Of a DNA stretch of 64,000 nucleotides, positions 37,414 to 44,938 are shown one piece after another. The position numbers and the translations under genes are program-made. This DNA comes from Verrucomicrobiota bacterium (GTDB taxonomy: Bacteria; Verrucomicrobiota; Lentisphaeria; JABSQK01; JAJFLO01), in the NCBI GenBank assembly GCA_021772635.1, contig JAJFLP010000076.1, positions 1 to 64,000 of the forward strand, written 5' to 3'. The notes under the pieces are model-generated. The model saw nothing but the letters and a program-made list of their open reading frames with translations, was not told the DNA's origin and searched no databases. Within the stretch, counting starts at the first letter, position 1. Each line of letters starts with the position of its first letter.

Positions 37414-38867
37414 AATTCTTCAGAGACCTATCGATCCGGCATAAACTCATGATTCTGATCATGACGACCAGTACGATTGTATTGGTTTTATCAACTATTT
37501 TCTTCTTTGTCCAAGATGTATTGAGCATTCGGCAGTCAATGGTGCAAGATTTGCAGTTTAAGGCGGACGTAATAGCTGCAAATAGTACGGCGGCCCTAAG
37601 TTTTTACGACCGAACCTCGGCCCAAGAGAACCTCGAGGCGCTTCGAGACGATCCGAACATCGTCTACGGCGCGGTTCTTGCAAAGGACGGTAGCGTTTTC
37701 GCTGAATACGCACAGCCCGGAAACAACCCCAAATCATTGCCGCATCTGCCTATTTCTGATAAGGCTCAATTCGCAGATCAACATCTAGACCTGTCGAAAA
37801 CAATCATTCTAGACGGCGAGCAGATCGGCGCGGTTTTTATACGATCGAATATGGACCAGATGTATTCTCGATTGAAAGGGCACATGAAGTCAACGGTTAT
37901 CGTAGTCGCGATTTTACTATTGATCGCACTGGGGCTTTCATCAGTTTTGCAGCGGACAATTTCAACCAGCATTTTGAATCTCGTCGATACGATGGATATC
38001 GTTTCCAGAGAAAAAGATTATACGATTCGTGCGGAAAAACCTAGTAACGATGAGCTCGGTCTTCTGGTTGATGACTTCAATTCGATGCTTTATCAAATTC
38101 AGCAGCGTGATGAAGCACTGCAGCGCGGGCAAGATAAACTCGAAGATCGAGTCCGTGAGAGGACAGCGGAATTGAAGAAAGAAATTACGGAACGAAAACG
38201 CGGTGAGGCAAAGGTAAAAGCATCTCTGATGGAAAAAGAAGTACTGCTGAAAGAAATTCATCACCGGGTGAAGAATAACCTTCAGGTCATCTGCAGCCTG
38301 CTCAATATTCAATCCAGTTATATACAGGACAGCGATACCCGGGAGCTTTTCGACGAAAGCCAGGATCGAGTTCGGACAATGGCACTGATTCACGAGAATT
38401 TGTATAAATCTAAAGATCTGACTCGCATCGATTTTTCGGAGTATATACGGAATCTATCGGCACAATTATTCCGCTCGCACTCAATAAGCTCGGGAAACGT
38501 AAAATTGGACTTCGGCTTGTGCCCTGTCGTCCTGGATATCGAAACAGCGTTGCCTTGCGGTCTAATTCTAAACGAGTTGATAACGAACTCTCTAAAGTAT
38601 GCATTCCCGGACGGTGCTGACGGGAAAATAGAGATAAAGTTCCAGAAAGCCGCCGATAATGGATACGCTCTGGTAGTCGGCGATAACGGTCGCGGTTTTC
38701 CGGAAGGAGTTGACTTTATGAAATCGCCGTCGCTCGGCTTGAAGTTGGTAAATACATTGGTTAAGCAACTGAAAGGGACTATTGTTATGAACGCAACTGC
38801 AGGTACGGAATTCAAAATAGAATTCTCTCATCTTAATTACAAAAACCGAATGACTGTCGATGGATAA
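37410..38867 (+). CDS. Membrane sensor histidine kinase, HisKA_2 type
   Basis: A 485-residue inner-membrane kinase. TM1 spans about residues 13-35 and TM2 about 158-176. Between them is a CHASE8-like periplasmic domain (FKADVIAANSTAALSFYDR, a block typical of that sensor). HAMP and a coiled coil reach about residue 275. The phosphoacceptor block EIHHRVKNNLQVICSLL has His284/285, of the HisKA_2/HWE type. The ATPase has NELITNSLKYAFPDG (N box) and GDNGRGFPEG. The tail overlaps the next kinase by eight bases, so phosphotransfer to that protein's N-terminal receiver is the obvious guess. Confidence 0.88.
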   Translation: MKFFRDLSIRHKLMILIMTTSTIVLVLSTIFFFVQDVLSIRQSMVQDLQFKADVIAANSTAALSFYDRTSAQENLEALRDDPNIVYGAVLAKDGSVFAEYAQPGNNPKSLPHLPISDKAQFADQHLDLSKTIILDGEQIGAVFIRSNMDQMYSRLKGHMKSTVIVVAILLLIALGLSSVLQRTISTSILNLVDTMDIVSREKDYTIRAEKPSNDELGLLVDDFNSMLYQIQQRDEALQRGQDKLEDRVRERTAELKKEITERKRGEAKVKASLMEKEVLLKEIHHRVKNNLQVICSLLNIQSSYIQDSDTRELFDESQDRVRTMALIHENLYKSKDLTRIDFSEYIRNLSAQLFRSHSISSGNVKLDFGLCPVVLDIETALPCGLILNELITNSLKYAFPDGADGKIEIKFQKAADNGYALVVGDNGRGFPEGVDFMKSPSLGLKLVNTLVKQLKGTIVMNATAGTEFKIEFSHLNYKNRMTVDG

Positions 38868-40416
38868 GAGACATAAAATTCTCATTGCTGAAGATGAATC
38901 CATCATCGCTATCGATTTGCAATGGCGTCTTGAGCAAAACGGGTTCGAGGTAGTCGGTGTCGTATCATCAGGTGACGCCGTTGTTGAGAAAGCTCTTGAG
39001 ACGAAACCCGACCTAATTTTGATGGACATACTCTTGGAAGGTGACATGGATGGCGTGTCGGCAATGGAAGTCATCGGTGCGTCGATCGATGTCTCGGTTA
39101 TATACCTCACTTCCTACTCCGACCAGAAAACCTTGCAACGTGCAAAGATCACGGAACCATCCGGATACATTCTCAAGCCGTTCGGAGACCGAGAGCTACT
39201 CGCAACAATAGAGATGGCACTGCACAAATACGCACTCGAACAAAAACTCAAAGGTAGTGAAAGATGGCTCAACACTACTCTTAAGGCGATCAGCGACGGT
39301 GTGATCTCAACGGACATTCACGATGACATTACGTTTATGAATCCAGTCGCGGAATCACTCACCGGGCGGAAGCTTGACGATGTACGCAATTCAAAGGTCA
39401 CAGCCCTACTTGAGATATATGAAGCGAATAGTTCAGAGCCAGTCAAGTTGGATTTAACTGCGATCGCAAAGAATAAGGACAGCCCCAGTCCGCGTGCCTG
39501 CGTACTTCATTCCCGCGCAAAGGAAAATATTCTTATCCAGTTGAGCGCATCTCCGATCCACGATGACACGCGTGGGATTGTTGGCACCGTACTTGTGATC
39601 AGAGATATTTCGCGGCAAAAAAAAATAGAAGACGAATTACTCAGAGCCCAGAAGCTAGATTCTTTAGCTGTCCTCGCCGGGGGGATTGCACATGATTTCA
39701 ATAATCTCCTGACGGGGATTCTAGGAAATATCAACCTTATCAGCTCAGAGATCAGTGAGGATGATGACTTATATCGGATGTTGATGGAGGCGGAGAATGC
39801 GTCGATGCGCGCGAAGACGCTAACTCACCAGTTGCTGACCTTTGCGAAAGGTGGAGCGCCAGTAAAAACGACTGGCCTGATTTCAGAGGTTATTTCTGAG
39901 GCAACCACTTTTGCGCTACGGGGGACAAAATTCGAATGCTCATTCGATTTCGATCGCGATCTCTGTCCGGTGGATTTCGATGAAGGGCAAATGTATCAGG
40001 TAATCTACAACCTGGTTATCAACGCTGTCCAGGCAAAACCGAGAGACAATAAAATAGGCGTCTCGGCGGCGAATATTGCGAGTCTGCCGAGCCATATTAC
40101 CCATGAGCAAACGGCGGACAGTTTCGTAAAGATCAGGATTAGTGATACCGGCGCTGGTATAGATTCAAAACACGAGTCGAAAATTTTTGACCCCTATTTT
40201 ACGACGAAAAAGGCAGGCAGCGGCCTCGGACTCGCTACAGCGTACTCCGTGATAAAAAAACACGGCGGCTATATCACCGTCGACTCGAACGTGAACGTAG
40301 GAACATCGTTTTTCATATTTATGCCGGCGTCGAAGACTGAATACTGTCCGAAACCCGGCAAAGACCACTCTCTCCATGAGGGATACGGCAAGATTTTGAT
40401 GATGGACGACGATTAA
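38860..40416 (+). CDS. Hybrid REC-PAS-histidine kinase, truncated before a second REC
   Basis: A 518-residue soluble protein. The receiver has acceptor Asp56 (LILMDILLEG) and Lys106 (YILKPFGD). A PAS domain spans about 130-250. The HisKA has His278 in LAVLAGGIAHDFNNLLTGIL, and the ATPase ends with GSGLGLATAYSVIKKHGG. The protein stops at a TAA directly after ILMMDDD, the opening acidic residues of a second receiver whose remainder is still readable downstream (40417-40776). It probably receives phosphate from the upstream kinase. With its output receiver broken, its signalling role today is uncertain. Confidence 0.85.
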   Translation: MDKRHKILIAEDESIIAIDLQWRLEQNGFEVVGVVSSGDAVVEKALETKPDLILMDILLEGDMDGVSAMEVIGASIDVSVIYLTSYSDQKTLQRAKITEPSGYILKPFGDRELLATIEMALHKYALEQKLKGSERWLNTTLKAISDGVISTDIHDDITFMNPVAESLTGRKLDDVRNSKVTALLEIYEANSSEPVKLDLTAIAKNKDSPSPRACVLHSRAKENILIQLSASPIHDDTRGIVGTVLVIRDISRQKKIEDELLRAQKLDSLAVLAGGIAHDFNNLLTGILGNINLISSEISEDDDLYRMLMEAENASMRAKTLTHQLLTFAKGGAPVKTTGLISEVISEATTFALRGTKFECSFDFDRDLCPVDFDEGQMYQVIYNLVINAVQAKPRDNKIGVSAANIASLPSHITHEQTADSFVKIRISDTGAGIDSKHESKIFDPYFTTKKAGSGLGLATAYSVIKKHGGYITVDSNVNVGTSFFIFMPASKTEYCPKPGKDHSLHEGYGKILMMDDD

Positions 40417-40776
40417 ATCATCACAACGTTGGGCGAGAGAATGTTAGTGCGATTGGGCTACTCCGTGATTATCTCGCCCGACGGTGACGACGCTATTGAG
40501 AAGTATCAAGAAGCGATGGACTCGGAATCGCCGGTGTCAGCGGCGATTCTAGATCTAACTATCCCAGGCGGGCTCGGGGGCAAGGATACCATGTAGAAGC
40601 TGCGGGAAATCGATCCGGATGCGATTGGAATTGTAGTAAGCGGATATTCCAACGATCATATCATATCCAACTATAGCGAGGTCGGATTCAAAGGGTTCAT
40701 CCTCAAACCAATCCGAATAAAGGAACTTGGAGATATCCTTCACGAGGTGATGAAAAAGCAAGCTATCCTCTCGTGA
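40417..40776 (+). pseudogene. Decayed C-terminal receiver domain with two in-frame stops
   Basis: In frame with the preceding kinase, the DNA reads on as a receiver domain after the TAA at 40414. LGERMLVRLGYSVIISPDG is followed by the acceptor site AAILDLTIPGGLGG, a TAG at 40594, then DAIGIVVSGYSNDH and GFKGFILKPIRIKELG, ending at TGA 40774. The fold-critical Asp and Lys remain, and each stop is one substitution from a sense codon, so decay is recent. Other genes in the window end in TAA, TAG and TGA, which argues against a recoded stop. Internal initiation at ATG 40441 would give only a fragment. Confidence 0.85.
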
Positions 40777-41242: not shown

Positions 41243-44200
41243 TTGGTAAACGAAACGTCCTCCACATTAGCCCAAGCTCTTCCTGAAAAAGGCGCACCTA
41301 TCTCCTCCGATCACGCCAACCCATTTGACAAATTAACGTCGAACTGCAGCCTTTCGCCGAAGGAAACCCGCGCGTTGCAGAATGTTGAAATGGAGCCTTC
41401 TTCTGAATTACCCGACCCGGCACAATCCCTGACATCACTGTCCTTATTATTACAAAACAACCTGGATCGAACGATCCGACGGACTTTATTTCGGCCTCAA
41501 ATATTGCGGCAAATCCTGACCCTGTTTTCCTGGTCCCACAGCTTAAGCAGATTTCTCATCAAGTACCCGGGCACGATTCCTGAGGTATTCCCCGTCGTCA
41601 AGACGACACCGGAACAGCTGTTTCAGTACTTGATCGAACTCGAAACGGAAGCGATGGAAGAGTGCCACAAGTCGTGGCTTCGGATAGCTAAAACCAAGGT
41701 ATTTATCCGAATCGCAATCAGCGATTTCTTGGAACTCGACAGTTTCGAAGAGACAACAAGAAAAATATCCCTGGTTGCCGACTTTTGTGTTCGGAAGGCG
41801 ATCGAATTCAGCGGCCTCAGCGAGTTTCCCGTCTCCGTCGTTGCGATGGGAAAATGGGGTGGTATGGAGCTCAATTACAGCTCGGATATCGACCTGCTCT
41901 TTATCGCGGATAATAGTCTTTCGCCGGTCGGATTGTACGAAGTTCATAATCACGCTGTAAAAACAGTACAACTCCTCGATCAGGTAACCGAAGATGGACT
42001 GGTCTTTCGCATCGATAATCGTTTAAGGCCTGAAGGAGCAACCGGCACCCTCGTTAAGACGATACGACAATATCTCAAACACTATCATAATCATGCGCTG
42101 GGTTGGGAGTTCCAGGCACTGGTGAAGGCACGCTACGGTGGCGGTGTTGAAAGCATTACCGACGAATTTATTCGTGAGACGCGACCACTAGTTTACAACC
42201 CGTCTATTATGCCGGAGACACTTCTCCAGCAGGTACGCGAAATGAAGGGGAAGATTGAAAAAGCATTGGTTGTCCACCATCAAAACGACGCGAACGTGAA
42301 ACTCGGCGCCGGCGGGATTCGGGATATCGAGTTCATTATTCAATTTCTCCAGCTGCATCATGGCCGGGTAAATTCTAATCTGCACGAAGTAAATACGCTA
42401 AGGGCTATAGACCGGCTACGAATTCATCGAATTATCACCGTCGATGAAGAAAGTGTATTGCGGAATGAATATATATTCCTGCGGCAGTTAGAACATTATC
42501 TCCAAATTGAAAATCAGCTACCGGTCAGACAACTTCCTAAAGATGAAGAGCTCCTGAATATATTGGGCCGGAAAATGAATTTCAGTAACACCAACGCTCG
42601 TTCCACCGGCAGTGAACTGCTGGTGCACTATCAGGAGTCGATACGTAGGACCCGCCGGATCTTTCACGATTTCTTCGATATGACCATTGCGTTTCTAGAG
42701 AAAAAGGAACGTGTGCGCGCGCTTTGCCCGAATATCCCGAAATCAGTTCTTTCCCCACATTTTACGCGGCTGGAGAGTGACTACTTTCTGCGTTTCGAAG
42801 TCTGTGATATCGCTGAACATCTTCGAATGGCAAGCAATCTTTCGAATGAACGCGTATGCGAACTAGCGCGAAAACAGATTTCGAATGATAAATGGCTGGT
42901 GACAATTGTAGCCTTCGACTACATCGGCGAGTTCGCCAAGATCTGCGGACTCTTTTCCGTATATGGCTTGAGTATAATTAGCGGCGAATCATTTACTTAC
43001 GATCTCGTTTCAGAACGGACCGCTAACCGTGCGAAGAAAGATGACACCTTTTACCGCCGTCGAGCGAAACGGAATATACACCGAGTTGACGAACCCCATA
43101 AGGGTGCGTCCGAGGAACGTAAAATCGTATGCGTCGCGGCCGTTCGCTCGGAATTTATGTCCAACGGGTTGACGATCCCGTGGGACGAATTCCGGGACGA
43201 ACTGGAGGCACTCCTTCAGCTGCTGCGAGCTGATAAGTTCCAGGAGGCGAGTGAACGGATCAATCTTCGCGTCGTCGGATCGTTGACGGACAAAGATAAA
43301 ATCGGCGACGAATTCCGGGCGCTCCCGCCAATCGAGTTTGAAATCGATAACGATTCCGACAATCGCTACACCATCCTGGAGATAAAGAGCCTTGACCGAT
43401 TCATGTTCTTATTCGAATTCGCTAACGTCCTGGCGACCAGAAATTATTATATCGGTAAAGTAGAAATCAGCACCGTGGGAAACAAGGTCTGCGACCGACT
43501 GTTCATCACCAGCAAACACGGAAAGAAAGTTGTGTCGACAAATGCGCTGCGGAATCTCACTGTCACGATAACCTTGATAAAACAATTCGCCACGTTCCTT
43601 CCATACGCGCCGAACCCTCAGTTGGCGCTCAAGCAATTCGGCGACTTCGTCGACTCGGTTCTGGACGCAAAGCAGCAAGGCGTTATCCCGATTATAGATC
43701 AGCAGAATACCCTGAAAACTTTCGCACGCGTTCTGGGAACAAGCTCCTTTCTATGGGAGGACTTTCTCAGGATGCAACACCAGAATCTGCTGCCGATATT
43801 GATGGATTCTCGAAAATTAAACCGGTCTCCGAGCCTCGCAGCACTAACCAGGCGCCTGAGGCAGCATCTCTCACGATACGATAATTTCGCAGATAGAGTT
43901 GACTGCCTGAATCGGTTTAAAGATCGCGAAATGTTCCGAATCGATCTTCGACATTTAACCCGGCAAGTACAGCGGTTCTCCGAATTTTGCCGGCATTTAT
44001 CCGATCTCGCTGACGCCGTGCTAATAGAGGCATATCGGTTGGCGATCGAATTCGCGAAAACGAAGTATAATCGAAAAGCGCCTGGGACTTCGTGTATTTG
44101 CGCACTTGGTAAATGGGGCGGGCGGGAACTGGGGTACGCCTCGGATATTGAACTCCTCTTTATCTGGCACACTTCAACTGACCAATATCATGCGGCTGTT

Positions 44201-44938
44201 GAATATTACGAAGTTATTGCGCAAAAGTTAATGAGCATAATAAAGAGTCGCAGGGATGGCATTTTCGAGTTGGACTTTCGCCTCAGACCGGGCGGCAAGA
44301 ACGCTAATCTTGCAACTCCACTCAACCGCTATAGATCGTACTTTTCGGAATCCGGCGAGGCGGATCCTTATGAGCGCCAGGCCCTTATTCGACTTAGAAC
44401 AGTGTCCGGAAGTCGCATCTTAAGGACGGCTATCGAGGACCATAGGGTTCAATATGTTTTCGGTTCGGGGACTTTCGACGTAGAGCGCATCAAACATCTT
44501 CGGCAACGGCAAGCCCGGGAACTGGTTGAACCCGGCGCGATTAACGCAAAATATAGTCGCGGGGGACTTGTTGACGCAGAATATTTTATACAGGTGCTGC
44601 AAATCCGATCTGGCGCCGGCAATCCCGCATCGCAGGCAACGAATACCATTGATGCCGCAATCAGTCTCAGAGATAGCGGTGTGATTTCCGCAGAAACGTA
44701 CGAACGATTTAGTGAGGGGTATCGGTTCCTTCGGGCTCTCATTAACGGTCTGCGAATCGTGCGCGGCAATGCCCGTGATCTCGTAATACCACCGCCTGAA
44801 TCGCCGGAGTTCCAGTACCTTGTGCGGCGACTTGATAATTTTGAGTATCGGCCAACAACCGGTGAACCGTGGGAGTATATTTGTGCTCAAATGCGATCTG
44901 TTGAAACCCTATTCGCCGGAATCGATGAGACGGGATAA
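41243..44938 (+). CDS. glnE: Glutamine synthetase adenylyltransferase with ACT-like insert
   Basis: A 1231-residue GlnE-like protein that would adenylylate and deadenylylate glutamine synthetase. The N-terminal transferase has GKWGGMELNYSSDIDLLF with D215/D217 and RLRPEGATGTLV. The C-terminal one has GKWGGRELGYASDIELLF with D968 and Glu970 in place of the second Asp, and LDFRLRPGGKNANL. Between them, roughly residues 545-790 look like the ACT region of GlnD: WLVTIVAFDYIGEFAKICGL and YTILEIKSLDRFMFLFEF each start an ACT-like unit. Classic GlnE is about 950 residues and lacks this. TTG start without a good Shine-Dalgarno; ATG 41390 is the alternative. Confidence 0.87.
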   Translation: MVNETSSTLAQALPEKGAPISSDHANPFDKLTSNCSLSPKETRALQNVEMEPSSELPDPAQSLTSLSLLLQNNLDRTIRRTLFRPQILRQILTLFSWSHSLSRFLIKYPGTIPEVFPVVKTTPEQLFQYLIELETEAMEECHKSWLRIAKTKVFIRIAISDFLELDSFEETTRKISLVADFCVRKAIEFSGLSEFPVSVVAMGKWGGMELNYSSDIDLLFIADNSLSPVGLYEVHNHAVKTVQLLDQVTEDGLVFRIDNRLRPEGATGTLVKTIRQYLKHYHNHALGWEFQALVKARYGGGVESITDEFIRETRPLVYNPSIMPETLLQQVREMKGKIEKALVVHHQNDANVKLGAGGIRDIEFIIQFLQLHHGRVNSNLHEVNTLRAIDRLRIHRIITVDEESVLRNEYIFLRQLEHYLQIENQLPVRQLPKDEELLNILGRKMNFSNTNARSTGSELLVHYQESIRRTRRIFHDFFDMTIAFLEKKERVRALCPNIPKSVLSPHFTRLESDYFLRFEVCDIAEHLRMASNLSNERVCELARKQISNDKWLVTIVAFDYIGEFAKICGLFSVYGLSIISGESFTYDLVSERTANRAKKDDTFYRRRAKRNIHRVDEPHKGASEERKIVCVAAVRSEFMSNGLTIPWDEFRDELEALLQLLRADKFQEASERINLRVVGSLTDKDKIGDEFRALPPIEFEIDNDSDNRYTILEIKSLDRFMFLFEFANVLATRNYYIGKVEISTVGNKVCDRLFITSKHGKKVVSTNALRNLTVTITLIKQFATFLPYAPNPQLALKQFGDFVDSVLDAKQQGVIPIIDQQNTLKTFARVLGTSSFLWEDFLRMQHQNLLPILMDSRKLNRSPSLAALTRRLRQHLSRYDNFADRVDCLNRFKDREMFRIDLRHLTRQVQRFSEFCRHLSDLADAVLIEAYRLAIEFAKTKYNRKAPGTSCICALGKWGGRELGYASDIELLFIWHTSTDQYHAAVEYYEVIAQKLMSIIKSRRDGIFELDFRLRPGGKNANLATPLNRYRSYFSESGEADPYERQALIRLRTVSGSRILRTAIEDHRVQYVFGSGTFDVERIKHLRQRQARELVEPGAINAKYSRGGLVDAEYFIQVLQIRSGAGNPASQATNTIDAAISLRDSGVISAETYERFSEGYRFLRALINGLRIVRGNARDLVIPPPESPEFQYLVRRLDNFEYRPTTGEPWEYICAQMRSVETLFAGIDETG

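Follow-up and report, generated by a model that had tools for sequence, protein, structure and literature searches.

The GlnD-PII-GlnE-GS bicycle is a textbook signalling cascade. The ACT domains of GlnD are regarded as glutamine sensors (PMC3173338), and PMC3612183 gives Tyr51 of E. coli PII as the residue that is uridylylated by GlnD. Adenylylation by the classical E. coli ATase depends on glutamine as well as on PII (PMC6316151), and a direct action of glutamine on GlnE is therefore not new in principle. The novelty would lie in employing GlnD-type ACT domains to exert such direct control. No description of a GlnE with GlnD-type ACT domains was found in the open-access literature, which is the part that was searched.

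The protein described here comes from a 64,000-nucleotide stretch of DNA of a Verrucomicrobiota bacterium (contig JAJFLP010000076.1), referred to in its whole length as the window. It is a GlnE consisting of an AR half, a GlnD-type tandem ACT region and an AT half (Table 1), and its reading frame has no internal stops. E. coli glnE (b3053) has 2841 bp and encodes 946 aa, making the window GlnE 285 aa longer, in good agreement with the excess of about 280 residues over classic GlnE given in a preliminary description of this DNA. A domain search found two copies each of PF03710 and PF08335, and no match to an HD hydrolase domain. The AR half is 33% identical to its E. coli counterpart and also matches PDB entry 1v4a, while a Foldseek search with the AT half returned the E. 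coli adenylyltransferase structures 1v4a (E 3.3e-17) and 3k7d (E 1.7e-15). Two further genomes of the same family encode proteins with identical domain order and 52% identity to the window protein.

Table 1. Features of the ACT-containing GlnE. Positions are those of the window.
Feature	Position	Strand	Residues	Content and evidence
ACT-containing GlnE	41243..44938, stop included	+	1231 aa	TTG start; AR - tandem ACT - AT
AR half (N-terminal de-adenylylase)	41408..42679	+	~56-479	PF03710 + PF08335; catalytic Asp215, Asp217, Asp258
Helical pre-ACT block	42683..42856	+	481-538	GlnD alignment, hhalign, helices in AlphaFold2 model
ACT1	42857..43348	+	~539-702	AlphaFold2, alignment, weak profile match
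ACT2	43370..43606	+	~710-788	GlnD profiles at 690-776, AlphaFold2, column counts
AT half (C-terminal adenylyltransferase)	43643..44935	+	~801-1231	PF03710 at 825-1064; catalytic Asp968, Glu970, Asp1011
SD[ILV]E signature of the ACT-AT module	44144..44152	+	Asp968-Ile969-Glu970	Motif comparison

The protein scores below the cut-offs of all three NCBIfam GlnE equivalog models (406.8 bits against 625, 341.6 against 487 and 281.5 against 724), and no NCBIfam model spans the AR-ACT-AT architecture. Judged by its sequence, it is thus clearly homologous to GlnE and yet falls outside the curated models. Against the GlnD model TIGR01693 it scores 93.6 bits, the cut-off being 519.4.

The preliminary description had placed a GlnD-like tandem ACT region between the two halves of GlnE. 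This arrangement is confirmed by hhalign, by matches of single relatives to the Pfam ACT model and by AlphaFold2. The region does lie between the halves, but its proposed start at about residue 545 is too late: YFLRFEVCDIAEHLRMASNL begins at residue 514, inside a helical block that is the counterpart of the block preceding the ACT domains in GlnD, and the whole region spans approximately residues 480-790. A 45-sequence profile of the region was compared with five GlnD proteins and gave an hhalign probability of 99.8 and an E value of 1.7e-28 over 228 columns, a match that takes in the helical block and both ACT domains. Positions 765-842 of TIGR01693 align to residues 695-773, which is the second ACT domain. 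Two single relatives pass PF01842 with 38.6 and 34.7 bits (cut-off 27). The structure prediction and profile search that had been suggested as checks of the region thus yielded two ACT-like units and homology to GlnD, the AlphaFold2 model of residues 481-806 having a mean pLDDT of 89.1.

The isolated ACT region matched ACT-type structures in Foldseek, the best being L-GDH180 (E 1e-4, TM-score 0.34). A sequence search of solved structures with the region alone gave no match, and the 45-row profile gave weak ACT matches (E 0.03 and worse). ACT1 has a weak profile match to the ACT domain of acetolactate synthase small subunits, and an ACR9-type profile weakly matches ACT2. The β1-α1 loop of ACT1 reads DYIGEF, with Gly562 and the invariant Gly569, and other aligned columns of the region include invariant residues. 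The corresponding loop glycine of ACT2, present in 34 of 45 aligned rows, is replaced by Met721 in the window protein. It is concluded that the ACT region is homologous to the C-terminus of GlnD and is predicted to fold as two ACT units.

Acidic catalytic residues are kept in both halves of the protein, with glutamate as the second acid of the AT half. The earlier observation that the second catalytic site has Asp968 but Glu970 is therefore correct, and it extends across the family: in each of the 45 ACT-AT rows the first catalytic residue is Asp and the second is Glu, and additional reversed forms (see below) also read SDIE, compared with SDxD in AR halves and in classical AT halves. Because the glutamate is invariant in all rows of the module, we take it to be a signature of the ACT-AT module; for the same reason, Glu970 as a mark of decay is ruled out. 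Among the structures matched by the AT half is entry 6p01, an E52D mutant of ANT(4''). Glu52 of ANT(4'') is the catalytic residue equivalent to Glu970. This active aminoglycoside nucleotidyltransferase thus has a natural glutamate at that position, which the wider nucleotidyltransferase superfamily tolerates.

The distribution of the module was followed by searching a genome collection with the window protein, which gave 49 loci that were then translated. Four arrangements occur among them. The fused AR-ACT-AT form of about 1200 aa is found in Chloroflexota (Anaerolineae, Ardenticatena and a MAG labelled Herpetosiphon), in Calditrichota and in the window's family. Separate AR and ACT-AT genes are adjacent in Entotheonella (L024, L025) and in an acidobacterial MAG (L028), and lie on different contigs in Latescibacterota and Zixibacteria. 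ACT-AT stands alone in several Chloroflexota MAGs, and also in Desulfuromonadales, where the genomes encode a complete classical GlnE (~1060 aa) in addition. Finally, a reverse fusion, ACT-AT-AR, of 1271-1356 aa is found in G062, G073, G126, G144 and G199, and with a broken frame in G211. Among the genomes sampled from the window's phylum, for which a profile search of 145 genomes with an ACT query was used in part, six show the reverse order and three the forward one, and these three all belong to the window's family.

Since the module stands alone and occurs in two fusion orders, the ACT region is best seen as the N-terminal part of an ACT-AT module. The extra ACT block of the preliminary description is real, but the term "insert" is misleading, as the block belongs to that module. 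In two trees the ACT-AT catalytic domains group as a single clade (100/100 support); most reversed forms are not represented there by their AT halves, which a motif filter had passed over. Support is poor for the deep branching among AR halves and for how each fusion arose.

Some of these arrangements deserve separate mention. No AR half was found in several Chloroflexota MAGs that carry ACT-AT (L026, L029, L032, L035, L048, L053), an arrangement with no evident means of de-adenylylating GS, should GS be the target. In Desulfuromonadales and related deltaproteobacteria (L034, L036-L039, L041-L043, L045, L050, L051), the stand-alone ACT-AT proteins are about 700 aa long and occur mostly in genomes with a complete GlnE and GlnD as well. 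The conserved neighbours in Desulfuromonadales are convergent genes for 2-oxoacid:ferredoxin oxidoreductase subunits, with Amt beyond them in two loci.

We then turn to the remainder of the pathway. The window genome, which is 91% complete, has one PII gene, adjoining Amt, and one type-I glnA. A search of it for GlnD gave nothing above or near the cut-off, and the only GlnD-like matches were the ACT region of the window GlnE itself and an HD-domain protein. GlnD was likewise not found in the family members G049 and G050, that is, in none of the three genomes of the family. At 91% completeness glnD could be missing by chance, though the two relatives also lack it. Beyond the window's phylum, none of 14 genomes with the fused AR-ACT-AT form gave GlnD, while all 13 genomes with a classical GlnE beside the module did, two of them with matches split over contigs. 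Inside the phylum, GlnD was found in 1 of 9 ACT-GlnE genomes as against 8 of 9 with classical GlnE (Fisher p 0.003), counts that are clustered by lineage and so not independent, and in which four of the nine ACT-GlnE genomes (G126, G144, G199, G211) are scored as lacking GlnD on the ACT query of the 145-genome search only.

The window PII has glutamate at the position of E. coli Tyr51 (T-loop aligned by eye), and G049 and G050 read alike. With no GlnD found and a PII lacking Tyr51, the classical PII/PII-UMP switch cannot run as it does in E. coli. The look-up of glnD and glnB proposed in the preliminary description thus shows something other than normal glnD-glnB control. PII control of the window GlnE is possible, given that the PII gene adjoins Amt. 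Seven genomes with the fused form, several of them Chloroflexota, gave no match to PII (G001, G005, G006, G008, G009, G012, G015).

The GS of this genome has KDLYDLAPEE around Tyr397, so the tyrosine of adenylylation is kept, as is its equivalent in the GS of the relatives examined. The gene glnA adjoins ACT-GlnE at nine loci (L006, L007, L008, L010-L013, L017, L030) and lies directly downstream of three reversed forms (L098, L178, L179). At L098 (G062:C34), PII, ACT-AT-AR and glnA follow one another on one strand, and G062 also has a full-length, divergent GlnD. In the close relative G049 (L185-L288; three contigs, 95% complete), ACT-GlnE, Amt and PII are kept, and neither a profile search nor tblastn of the whole assembly found a type-I glnA; some of the genes that flank the window's glnA are absent from it as well, and an assembly gap is possible.

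Upstream in the window, at 38860-40774, a hybrid sensor kinase/response regulator is encoded. Two in-frame stops (TAA near 40414 and TAG near 40592) interrupt its C-terminal receiver domain, the frame being otherwise open to about 40774, and the gene has probably decayed.

The reading that we favour, with a probability of about 0.6, is that the window protein is a GS adenylyltransferase/removase with a built-in GlnD-type sensor, controlled directly by an amino acid, probably glutamine. The sensor usually found on GlnD (a helical block and two ACT domains) would sit at the front of the adenylyltransferase module. Binding of an amino acid to the ACT region, most likely glutamine as the product of GS, would make the AT half active, so that Tyr397 of the genome's type-I GS would receive AMP and GS would become less active. 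Under scarcity of the amino acid, the AR half would take the AMP off again. The uridylylation branch of GlnD and PII-UMP was not found, and the unmodified PII encoded beside Amt may still tune the enzyme. We infer the ligand, the direction of control and the catalytic activity of the window GlnE from its sequence and context. Weighing against this reading are Met721 in the ACT2 loop, the fact that PII is still encoded, and G049, with its lack of a detectable type-I GS. It is further weakened by Desulfuromonadales, which have classical GlnE and GlnD as well as the module, so that the module does not always replace the classical enzymes.

These points leave room for other explanations. An unmodified PII, responding to 2-oxoglutarate and nucleotides, might govern the AR and AT halves, with the ACT region serving mainly as a scaffold or for oligomerisation and no longer sensing an amino acid. 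The loss of the ACT2 glycine in the window protein would fit this, as would the PII genes that lie beside Amt in the window's family and, in G062, immediately ahead of the reversed ACT-GlnE. We consider it unlikely nonetheless, because the seven fused-form genomes without a PII match still keep an ACT region with its invariant residues, and because the window PII has no Tyr51 and no GlnD was found. Less probable again is an ACT region that senses another amino acid, such as glutamate, alanine or serine, or an AT half whose substrate is some protein other than GS. In favour are the wide range of amino acids bound by ACT domains, the lone ACT-AT beside classical GlnE and GlnD in Desulfuromonadales, and G049, which has the gene but no detected type-I GS; on the other hand, glnA adjoins the gene in many relatives, the ACT pair is specifically GlnD-like, and Tyr397 is kept in GS.

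Glu970 might also be thought to make the AT half a dead or regulatory paralogue, leaving a protein that only removes AMP, given that classical AT halves and AR halves have Asp there. This is very improbable in view of the glutamate in all 45 rows and in the reversed forms, of the conservation of the other catalytic residues and of many further positions, and of the natural glutamate that active ANT(4'') has at the equivalent site. An origin of the extra region as an assembly artefact, or as an unrelated insert without function, has in its favour only that the protein is a length outlier against E. coli GlnE. It is refuted by the confidently predicted ACT fold and by a like architecture, present at 52% identity in two relatives and also in several phyla.

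If direct control by way of the ACT region is true, the sensor of the first enzyme of the cascade has been joined to its effector enzyme, and the cascade is collapsible to one protein. This concerns the genomes in which the intermediate steps are missing or unmodifiable. It would provide one-component control of GS in a directly testable form, and the varied domain orders hint at which contacts between parts are needed and which are dispensable. More tentatively, and with rather less than even confidence, we propose that ACT-AT represents a widespread family of GS regulators that sense glutamine as a single component and for which the literature searched gave no description. In several phyla this family may have taken the place of the GlnD/PII-UMP cascade (among some Chloroflexota with no PII at all), and AR has been joined to it in both orders.

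Among known systems, GlnE of E. coli resembles the window protein in having two homologous nucleotidyltransferase halves, AR followed by AT, with their catalytic motifs, and in its target, since the window genome likewise encodes a GS with Tyr397. The window protein differs in having two GlnD-type ACT domains ahead of the AT half, in its AT motif (SDIE, compared with SDLD in E. coli GlnE), and in a genome where the GlnD/PII-UMP branch was not found. GlnD (TIGR01693) shares with it the helical block and tandem ACT C-terminus over 228 columns, but combines a single transferase domain with a single HD hydrolase domain and lacks a second GlnE half, whereas the window protein has no HD domain. The order also differs, as the ACT domains follow the transferase in GlnD (NTase-HD-ACT-ACT) and precede it in the window protein. 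The ACR proteins of plants have similar GlnD-like ACT repeats and no nucleotidyltransferase, and L-GDH180, the large NAD glutamate dehydrogenase of Mycobacterium that is the best Foldseek match of the ACT region, is a different catalytic enzyme.
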